Source: Salminus brasiliensis
Taxonomy: Eukaryota; Chordata; Actinopteri; Characiformes; Bryconidae
DNA: 64,000 nucleotides
Direction of reading: 5' to 3'
NCBI RefSeq assembly: GCF_030463535.1
Contig: NC_132900.1
Coordinates: 25,196,456-25,260,455, forward strand
Shown: positions 53,159 through 56,850 of the stretch, piece by piece
Numbering within the stretch: position 1 is the stretch's first letter
How the letters are laid out: each line of letters starts with the position of its first letter
Notes under the pieces: generated by a model
What the model saw: the letters and a program-made list of their open reading frames with translations, nothing else
What the model was told of the DNA's origin: nothing
Databases searched by the model: none
Made by a program: the position numbers and the translations under genes

Positions 53159-54465
53159 TCACCAGGGTCTCCACATCTCCAGAGCTGTGAGCTGTGGGCT
53201 TTCAGCAGGCTCAGGCCTACCAAGAGGGGGGGTGCCAGAACTTTTAACGGCCGCTCTGGCACCCACTGCAGGAGAAGCAGGGCATGACTTCGGACCTTCT
53301 GCCTCGCTGCCATGGTAATGTACATGGTCAGCGTGTTCAGAGAGGCAGGGTTTGGCTCTCTGGGAGGACTCAGGCGCTGACTTGGGCAGCGATTTGAGCA
53401 GGTGGTTGAGGAGCCGTGAGCCAAGCGTCTTGTCCATCCAGTCGCAGGACAGCAGCAGGTTGTGGACTTCGTGCATGCACTGGATGTAGCCGGTGCTGTA
53501 CCTCTGCTGGGCCTCCGAGTCCAGTATTGGCTCTGTTTGAGGAGAAATTCAGGTCAGAACGGCACTAAAATGAACCCTTTACTTCCACTCTATGCCATGT
53601 TCACACCCGAATGCCTGAAAGAAATAGTCCCTGAAAATGTCAAATTTAGTCAGGTCAGTCAAGTTAGTTGACATTTACTTCTTTAGTTTTTAGCACTACA
53701 CGGCTAAAATCTATATAACTGACTTTGAAAACTTTCTGAATGTACAGCTCTGGAAAAAATTAAGAGACCATTTATATTTTTTTCTTAAATTTGCATTTTT
53801 ATGTGTCTGGCAGTTATTTAATTCCAGGCATTTCTTCAAACAAAGCTGAGTTACCTTCATTTGCAGACTATGAATGGCATAAAGTCACTCAACAGCAATG
53901 TGAAAGACTAGTGGAGAGCCTGCCAAGACATGAAAGCTGTGATTGGCAGTCGAGGTTATTTCACCAGTGATTTTTGAATGCTCTCAAGTATTCTCCCTCA
54001 AGTAAATATTAGTACTGTGTTGTTCAAATCTGAATAATACCGTCTTTGCATTATAATTACTATAATCATTTATTTGCATTATTTGAGCAGCTGTCATTTC
54101 TGCAATTAAATGCTCTAAATAGCAATATTTTTATTTGGAATTTAGGGCAAGTGTTGCCCATGGTTTATAAAATACTAAGCAAATGTTAATTTCCCTTAAA
54201 CACACTGCTTATAAATAGTAAAACCAGAGAAACTGATCATGAAGGGTGGTCTCTTAAATTGTTCCGGATCTGTTTATAATGGAACAAGGGAACCTTTTTG
54301 TCACATACTTACCATTAACTTTACTACTCTGAATGTTCTGTAGGTGCTTAACGGTCATTTCCAGGATGTCAGCTTTCTCCAATTTGGACTGCTGCATAGA
54401 GGAATAACAATAACATTAGAGTTCAAGCAACTTTATGAGTGTATATGAGTTATGAGATGTGAAGC

Positions 54466-54534
<69 letters not shown>

Positions 54535-55197
54535 GAGTAGAGAGTAGCATATGGGCCCTTATTTTGAACAAGTGGTCTTGAGCCAATCAGAACAGATAAT
54601 GATAAATCTTAAAGGTACAGTACTGAAAAGCAGATGAAGAAATGTTGGAAATTGGGAAAATTAATTTTTATTAATTTAATAAATTTTTGGTGCGTAGACA
54701 CTTTTACATGTCATAAGTGGAGCTCCTAAGAACACAAAACCAAAGTACAAGAGGAAATGTAGCATATGGACCCTTTAATTTGAACTTACATCCAGCCTAA
54801 AGGCCCCAACCACCGTCTCTCTCAGCTGATCCAAGCAGTGGTTTATTCTTTCCCGTCTTTTCCTCTCTATTAATGGTTTCCTCAGCTGAAAACAGACGAG
54901 AGAAAAGTTACTAAAAGTCACGACACTTGACTTGCCAGTGTCTCATTCAAATTAGCCGGTCCACCTTAAATGGTGCAACAGTTACATTCCGGCGCCTGAG
55001 GCGCCGGAATGTAACTGTTGCACCATTTAAGGTGGACCGGCTAATTTGAATGAGACAATTTTAATGAGACTAATTTGAATGAGACTAATTTGAATAAAAA
55101 GCTCCACCAAAAACTTAAGACAAACTTCAGCTGGGGGGGAGGTCCACCTTACCTTTCTCTCCTCCTTCGCACTCGCGCTGGGTCTCTCCGCGGTCAT
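53159..55197 (-). CDS. her8a: HER8-type bHLH-Orange repressor, 197 aa
   Basis: The exons in transcript order are 55153-55197, 54790-54885, 54313-54391 and 53159-53532, giving 197 codons plus stop in frame. The start is MTAERPSASAKEERK. The basic region is LRKPLIERKRRERINHCL, helix 1 is LDQLRETVVGAF, and helix 2 is QSKLEKADILEMTVKHLQNI. The Orange domain runs from AQQRYSTGYIQCMHEVHNLL to GSRLLNHLLKSLP. The C-terminus is WRPW, the Groucho/TLE-binding tetrapeptide. The basic-region proline and the RLDQSKLEKAD loop fit the fish her8/frog hes8 group better than hes1 or hes5. Known her8 genes act in neural progenitors. It shares strand with hes6 5.5 kb away, so the two may be an old tandem pair. 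The a/b suffix is a guess. Exon 3 could start three bases later (CAGCAG acceptor). Confidence 0.88.
53742..54272 (+). mobile_element. Non-autonomous DNA transposon with 'CTGGAAAAAATTAAGAGACC' ends
   Basis: The left end ACAGCTCTGGAAAAAATTAA and the right end (TGGTCTCTTAAATTGTTCC) are inverted copies. The interior of about 500 bp has no transposase frame. It lies in intron 3 of the her8-type gene. Confidence 0.65.
54472..54535. repeat. (TA)n(CA)n microsatellite
   Basis: A TA run passes into a short CA run in intron 2 of the her8-type gene. Confidence 0.95.
54939..55057. repeat. Perfect palindrome, 59-bp arms, 1-nt centre
   Basis: Each base from 54939 to 54997 pairs with its partner from 55057 back to 54999 around a single G at 54998. 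No mismatch was found reading base by base. It lies in intron 1 (54886-55152) of the her8-type gene. To its right, 'TAATTTGAATGAGAC' is repeated twice more. In RNA the intron would fold into one long hairpin. Confidence 0.93.
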
Positions 55198-55294
55198 TTC
55201 CAGCAGATTTCTTATTTGTTTGTTTGTTTGTTTGTTTGTTTATTTTTTGGGCTCCAACACGCCGCTCCAGTCCAAGCAGCAACAGAGCTGTGCG

Positions 55295-55613: not shown

Positions 55614-55904
55614 GAGACTGAAAAACAGGCGACAGATGTCCTGTCTGCAACCTCTACTTCTTTATTCAAGGCGTGTCACGTGACTTATCCCCCACGCGCA
55701 TGCACTCTCATAAAGAAAGGTGCCGGGGGTTCTGTGGGTTTCATAGAACCATGTTGGTTCCCTTAAGAACCCTTCAAGTCAGACTTATGTGCTCCAATGT
55801 TTTACGTTCCCCCAGCGGACCGCTTGTTTTCCAACCTACGTGCCTTTAAGGCTGATATATGCAAATGAGCACCGTTTTGATTTGCTGCCCCTGTGAGTAG
55901 AAAC

Positions 55905-56850
55905 ATAAGGTAGGTGTTTCCAATAAAGTGGCCAGTGAGTGGAAGCACAAGGTTGGGGGTTTCTAATAAAGTGGCCAGTGAGTGGAAGCACAACGCCGGT
56001 GTTTCTAATAAAGTGGCCAGTGAGTAGAAACACAAGGTATGTGTTTCCAATAAAGTGGCCAGTGAGGTAAAGCATAAGGTAGGTGTTTCTAATAAAGTGG
56101 CCAGTGAGGGAAAGCATAAGGTAGGGGTTTCTAATAAAGTGGCCAGTGAGTGGAAGCATATGGTAGGGGTTTCTAATAAAGTGGCCAGTGAGTGGAAGCA
56201 CAAGGTAGGGGTTTCTAATAAAGTGGCCAGTGAGTGGAAGCACAAGGTTGGGGGTTTCTAATAAAGTGGCCAGTGAGTGGAAGCACAAGGTTGGGGGTTT
56301 CTAATAAAGTGGCCAGTGAGTGGAAGCACAAGGTTGGGGGTTTCTAATAAAGTGGCCAGTGAGTGAAAGCATATGGTAGGGGTTTCTAAGAAAGTGGCCA
56401 GTGAGTGGAAGCACAAGGTTGGGGGTTTCTAATAAAGTGGCCAGTGAGTGGAAGCACAAGGTTGGGGGTTTCTAATAAAGTGGCCAGTGAGTGAAAGCAT
56501 ATGGTAGGGGTTTCTAATAAAGTGGCCAGTGAGTGGAAGCACAAGGTTGGGGGTTTCTAATAAAGTGGCCAGTGAGTGAAAGCATATGGTAGGGGTTTCT
56601 AATAAAGTGGCCAGTGAGTGGAAGCACAAGGTTGGGGGTTTCTAATAAAGTGGCCAGTGAGTGGAAGCACAAGGTTGGGGGTTTCTAATAAAGTGGCCAG
56701 TGAGTGGAAGCACAAGGTTGGGGGTTTCTAATAAAGTGGCCAGTGAGTGTAAGCACAAGGTTGGGGGTTTCTAATAAAGTGGCCAATGAGTAAAAGCACA
56801 ACGCAGGTGTTTCTAATAAAGTGGCCAGTGAGTGGAGGCACAAGGTGGAC
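55905..56850. repeat. 43-bp minisatellite (TTTCTAATAAAGTGGCCAGT)
   Basis: About 22 copies of a 42-43-bp unit carry GTTTCTAATAAAGTGGCCAG then 'TGAGTGGAAGCACAAGG'. The core AATAAAGTGGCCAGTGAGTG resembles a terminal sequence common in fish transposons. Open frames across it (Leu-Ala-Thr-Leu-Leu type) are by-products. Confidence 0.92.

Follow-up and report, generated by a model that had tools for sequence, protein, structure and literature searches.

A perfect intronic palindrome from Salminus brasiliensis belongs to a dispersed palindromic repeat family with co-evolving arms and mostly mirrored flank skew

Vertebrate genomes contain palindromic MITEs and other short inverted-repeat elements (e.g., Angel and MADE1), and long perfect palindromes are generally regarded as unstable and soon broken up. 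The family described here is like those MITEs in being short and palindromic, with many dispersed copies, no evident coding capacity and some intronic members, but unlike them in that no target-site duplication was detected, the flanks are mirrored, and the arms co-evolve beyond the core. Correction of hairpins and quasipalindromes by template switching has been described for RNA genes and yeast test loci (PMC8794818, PMC3820800); as in those accounts, one arm here appears to have served as the template from which the other was made to match, whereas here a single dispersed family with mirrored flank skew is concerned. Nematomorpha mitochondria carry many long perfect coding palindromes, and template switching was proposed there for the concerted arms (PMC6649704); unlike these, the present family is nuclear, dispersed, and intronic in the host genes that were checked. 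Palindromic AT-rich repeats are described as extruding cruciforms and suffering more breaks in both mitotic and meiotic cells (PMC7999016), but the loci concerned are human AT-rich ones. At human meiotic breaks, C>N and A>N changes are reported to the left and their complement to the right, over ~2 kb but with no asymmetry at distances below 100 bp (PMC7615360), and fish with a partial PRDM9 are reported to recombine at promoter-like features without the full protein (PMC5519329). A full-text literature search, whose coverage mostly left out subscription papers, found no description of this palindrome family.

The window is the whole stretch of 64,000 nucleotides that was analyzed. A first-pass annotation of it had claimed a perfect palindrome in intron 1 of a her8-type gene, and this was confirmed: arms of 59 nt + 59 nt are 100% complementary around a single G (Table 1). 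No longer perfect palindrome exists in the window at the spacers examined (0-8 and 10 nt), the next-longest being AT repeats, none with an arm above 28. The very stable hairpin that had been foreseen upon transcription is also borne out by folding, as the minus-strand RNA is predicted at -113.3 kcal/mol, whereas 200 shuffled sequences average -28.8. The host intron of this bHLH gene is 267 bp long on the minus strand and follows an exon 1 that encodes 15 residues and ends in a donor of score 11.2 at offset 154; the exon 2 peptide, taken with one extra residue, gave an HLH match (Pfam PF00010, E 1.5e-07). Two local repeats had been pointed out as well, and both are there: the 11-bp arm piece GGTCCACCTTA is found again at 55141-55151, beside the exon 1 donor, and TAATTTGAATGAGAC belongs to the 15-bp x 3.7 tandem array adjoining the core. 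The TAAG of the 11-bp echo is fixed by the splice site, and the remainder, and with it the echo, may be of chance origin; a second echo, the exact 13-bp repeat CGGTCATTTCCAG at 54352-54364 and 55191-55203, means that echoes of such kind do occur in the window. Both CGGTCATTTCCAG positions lie, by eye, within the coding sequence of the her8-type gene, and the GGTCCACCTTA at the donor is a piece of the palindrome arm that includes the GGTCC form, where GTTCC is found in most of the copies that were read.

Table 1. Features of the window palindrome and its host gene, in window coordinates.
Feature	Position	Strand	Basis
Perfect palindrome, 59-nt arms around G 54998	54939..55057	.	sequence comparison
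Left arm	54939..54997		
Right arm	54999..55057		
85-bp core common to the family (CCG..CGG)	54956..55040	.	family comparison
AATTNN, outer portion of left arm	54950..54955	+	58-copy comparison
15-bp x 3.7 tandem array, built from outer right arm (CTAATTTGAATGAGA)	55041..55095	+	repeat search; family comparison by eye
Intron 1 of her8-type gene, contains the palindrome; donor at 55152	54886..55152	-	read by eye
Exon 1, coding part (MTAERPSASAKEERK)	55153..55197	-	read by eye
Exon 2, bHLH domain start (LRKPLIERKRRERINHCLDQLRETVVGAFRLD)	54790..54885	-	read by eye; Pfam

The window palindrome is a member of a dispersed palindromic family that resembles a MITE in size and copy number. When up to three mismatches were allowed, a 29-nt arm pattern gave 581 forward and 671 reverse matches genome-wide, and none for the reversed control; within three mismatches, the family therefore lies between 626 loci (all matches paired) and 1,252 loci (none paired). 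BLAST with the palindrome and its surroundings gave 80 matches at 40 sites, with both strands matched at each site; these 40 were the ones scored out of 266 initial candidates, and the list was ordered by resemblance to a perfect palindrome. Among 100 arm-pattern matches listed, 76 were exact and made up 34 palindrome-spaced pairs and eight singles, and 24, all on contig 1, had one mismatch and made up ten pairs sharing the same change (20 matches) and four singles. Altogether, 75 distinct copies were read, 40 from BLAST (including that of the window), 29 from the arm-pattern matches, and six from a core-variant comparison; L003-L008 duplicated L009-L014 and were left out, and L001 and L002 both correspond to the window copy. 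Copies were called intact if the arms differed at no more than one site over 29 nt and were spaced by 10-30 nt, so that the class "intact" presupposes arm identity across the 29-nt core. On this definition, 61 copies were intact, both arms matching, and 14 were decayed, one arm having decayed or being absent. All 40 BLAST-chosen copies were intact, against 21 of the 35 others, and the ratio of intact to decayed is thus not a genome-wide estimate. L081 has identical core arms around a longer center (gap 26), and its arms are nearly matched out to a faint GCTGAAGTTGG consensus.

Given 74 other copies read at other places, 60 of them with matched arms, the assembly artefact about which the first-pass annotation had warned is very unlikely. 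Its favored origin, a single recent template switch at this locus, would account for the 59-bp perfect arms together with the 11-bp echo at the donor, but related copies stand at hundreds of other places, and the one-off event, like an assembly fold-back, is extremely improbable; both candidates were rejected on copy number. Template switching nevertheless fits as a recurring process; what fell was the single recent event, as the family numbers several hundred loci at the least. Recurrence at many sites with transposon-like ends had been named as evidence to the contrary, and here the many sites were found, but not ends marked by target-site duplications. Short size, inverted repeats and many dispersed copies are of course what is expected of a MITE. 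Nonetheless, a scan for 2-8 nt direct repeats at 60 offsets, on 58 intact copies and then on 61, revealed no target-site duplication at the ends: with self-complementary words excluded, 2-nt repeats reached a maximum of 9/61 (3.8 expected), and those of 3-8 nt a maximum of 3/61. The palindrome family was therefore not filed as a MITE.

The arms of intact copies evolve together. The comparison was made at positions outside the searched core, and over 58 intact copies, identity within a copy exceeded that between copies at p7 (0.91 vs 0.35), p5-6 (0.98 vs 0.82), p12-17 (0.76 vs 0.50), and p18-22 (0.59 vs 0.40); beyond p31, both were ~0.3. For the 17-nt outer arm, the own partner was strictly the best match for 44 of 116 arms, with a further 11 ties, where ~1 was expected. 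What speaks against this is that the best of 114 foreign arms averaged 14.0 identities and the own partner 13.3 (mean foreign arm, 9.4), a consequence of the loose consensus that outer arms have in common; a faint outer consensus (GAAGTTGGCTT) extends to ~100 bp. Central spacers differ between copies yet are mostly self-mirroring (AAGCGCC..GGCGCTT, TGACGCC..GGCGTCA). The arms of L069 match out to 79 bp from the center, and its 30-nt outer arm, the same on both sides, reaches at most 15/30 in the 60 other intact copies. Relative to the commonest core, each arm of the window copy carries three changes, and both arms carry the same ones; no other arm within three mismatches has all three, whereas one or two of them are shared by single arms. 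In the AATTNN of the outer left arm, AATT is conserved across copies, and NN differs from one copy to the next but is mostly matched between the two arms of any one copy. Likewise, AATTNNCCGTT was kept across the 58 intact copies and NN was freer, which suggests sequence-specific recognition.

Arms that are identical within a locus and differ between loci are the mark of quasipalindromes corrected by template switching. As the arms match within copies where the copies themselves differ, co-evolution, through repeated template switching or hairpin-templated repair, is indicated and not a single recent event, and correction in place by either route is the likeliest cause. No segmental duplicates that might reveal arm changes in place were found among 69 copies, 49 of which had only ~300-400 bp of flank. 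The serious rival is a young, ordinary mobile repeat, each new copy of which would be born as a perfect hairpin, with one arm serving as template for the other in the course of amplification; it would prefer gene-start and subtelomeric DNA, where the skew described below would already have existed. The number of copies (581 + 671 arm matches) is in its favor, but outer arms that vary between copies and match within them over p12-p22, and the private matched outer arm of L069, would both demand many symmetric changes; the weakness of the outer consensus (GAAGTT in 10/78 arms at 60-100 bp) speaks for age, and there is the lack of a target-site duplication. Overall, we regard the mobile repeat as possible but somewhat unlikely.

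The flanks of intact copies are mirrored. Read inward at 65-200 bp, those of 58 intact copies are G/T-rich (A 0.27, C 0.15, G 0.26, T 0.33), whereas flanks at 0.5-4 kb (20 copies) have C at 0.22 and G at 0.18-0.20; inward, C thus goes down, A slightly down, and G and T up. GC skew was positive on the left and negative on the right in 47/61 intact vs 4/14 decayed copies (Mann-Whitney p 4e-5), with means of +0.21 and -0.22, respectively, in the intact ones. The difference persisted without the 40 BLAST-chosen copies (15/21 intact vs 4/14 decayed, Mann-Whitney p 0.001) and in the exact-arm set (27/34 vs 2/8, p 4e-5), and the mirrored signs were absent in 14 of the 61 intact copies. With each locus as its own control (19 loci with 10 kb), the skew difference was 0.39 at the palindrome and 0.01 at 1.2 kb or more from it; 9 of the 19 exceeded 95% of their own control positions, and L029 was clearly reversed. 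The mirrored strand asymmetry expected of double-strand break hotspots was found at the level of the family; the window copy itself, at -0.21/-0.08, does not have it. L078 is an exception to the link between skew and intactness, as its skew is strong (+0.31/-0.47) although its arms differ at 5/29 core sites. Long shared arms were considered as the source of the skew and rejected: flank blastn of 20 copies plus the window gave mostly within-copy matches (five hits), and between copies only two short ones, of 25 and 19 nt. In the flanks of the 69 copies (49 with ~300-400 bp), matches over 60 nt were confined to a minisatellite that the window and L035 have in common (36 rows) and to four other pairs, in which the matches lie at least 380 bp from the palindrome.

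Intact copies are also concentrated at chromosome ends, 50 of 61 lying in the outer 10% of either end against 5 of 14 decayed copies (Fisher p 0.001), where 20% is expected under uniform placement uncorrected for gene density; the exact-arm set gave 27/34 and 3/8. The skew tracks intactness more than position, as 11 intact copies away from the ends are also skewed (median difference 0.39), and four of five decayed copies near the ends lack mirrored skew. Splice donors, scored on donor-site frequencies with a threshold of 10, point to the palindrome from 73-292 bp off in 19/58 intact copies, where shuffled flanks predict 6.5, and away from it in 2/58; among 11 decayed copies, none is inward and three are outward. 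Some transposons favor the 5' regions of genes. A mobile repeat with target preference would accordingly explain both the copies just inside strong donors and the lesser concentration of decayed copies at chromosome ends, whereas the flip of the skew at the palindrome itself, with a sign opposite to that at 0.5-2 kb, counts against a pre-existing target property.

Transcription, too, makes the sense strand richer in G and T, and convergent transcription towards the palindrome, rather than breakage, might have produced the mirrored skew, the more so as an inward donor is often present on one side. However, only one of 58 intact copies is flanked on both sides by donors that reach a score of 10. 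Moreover, in 19 donor-oriented copies (L013 and L030 by eye, L009 and L025 just under the score of 10), the gene side has a skew of ~+0.35 and the far side one of -0.15 to -0.24, i.e., the far side is still inward G-rich, a pattern for which host-gene transcription is not by itself sufficient. We consider convergent transcription improbable.

Mirrored G-rich flanks have the sign expected at resected double-strand breaks, and from this we infer breakage; recurrent breakage would be the simplest single cause of both the mirrored skew and the arm correction. The best explanation we can offer, to which we give about even credence, is that of a dispersed palindromic repeat whose arms are corrected through hairpins and whose intact copies are sites of recurrent germline breakage and repair. 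A hairpin or cruciform would allow one arm to template the replication or repair of the other, and a change in an arm would then be either copied to both or removed. Less certain than arm templating is that intact copies are recurrent germline break sites, often near gene starts and chromosome ends; there, resection would expose a single strand on each side, leading to the mirrored bias of G/T vs C/A, and repair synthesis across the center would make the palindrome perfect again. Candidate sources of the breaks are a SPO11 hotspot, a hairpin nuclease, and excision by a transposase. The fuller proposal, that self-perfecting palindromes of this family are where germline breaks naturally fall, many of them in introns close to gene starts and at chromosome ends, with repair through the hairpin rewriting both arms and resection imprinting the skew, is put forward as rather doubtful. 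As at meiotic break hotspots, mutation would be strand-asymmetric on either side of a center, the center here being a palindromic repeat; compared with the human breaks of PMC7615360, the direction of the skew agrees, but it extends over ~300-400 bp here (its sign being weakly reversed at 0.5-2 kb) and ~2 kb there. Intact members that are perfect and yet change in sequence over time would be a case of arm correction acting in nuclear DNA, and the skew mirrored across their flanks offers a direct route to testing whether palindromes set germline breaks in vertebrates. If the proposal is true, a vertebrate would have, in the intact copies, long-lived centers of breakage or recombination that are specified by sequence.

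Selection at the RNA level might also keep an intronic hairpin perfect, whether as a miRNA or siRNA precursor, an editing target, or a means of splicing control, and the very stable predicted fold of the window copy and the proximity of one third of intact copies to the 5' ends of introns are in keeping with it. The 18 arm mismatches found in 2320 cells comprise 7 of transition type and 11 others, however, and hence no excess of wobble pairs, and Rfam gave 16 matches for the window copy, all below gathering scores, so that no curated microRNA-precursor family was matched. The Dicer or editing role suggested in the first-pass annotation thus gained no support, and we judge RNA-level selection highly improbable.

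Two other host genes were checked, those of L036 and L035, and three more were named by eye. Downstream of the L036 copy are a VWC exon and collagen-type repeats, and judging by its donor, the copy lies in intron 1 of a fibrillar collagen gene; the first-exon peptide had no match in Pfam or PDB. By eye, the hosts of L046, L013, and L030 are presumably Pecanex, WDFY, and POGLUT2, respectively, and Pfam gave nothing above cut-off for the L046 and L013 peptides. L035 resides in a Rab geranylgeranyltransferase beta gene (PDB 3pz1, E 8e-50), where the donor sits directly after an ATG. A 43-bp x 22 minisatellite (GTGAGTGGAAGCACAAGGTTGGGGGTTTCTAATAAAGTGGCCA) occupies 55893-56846 of the window, ~0.9 kb from its palindrome, and a related array (CCACTTTATTAGAAACACC) adjoins the L035 copy.
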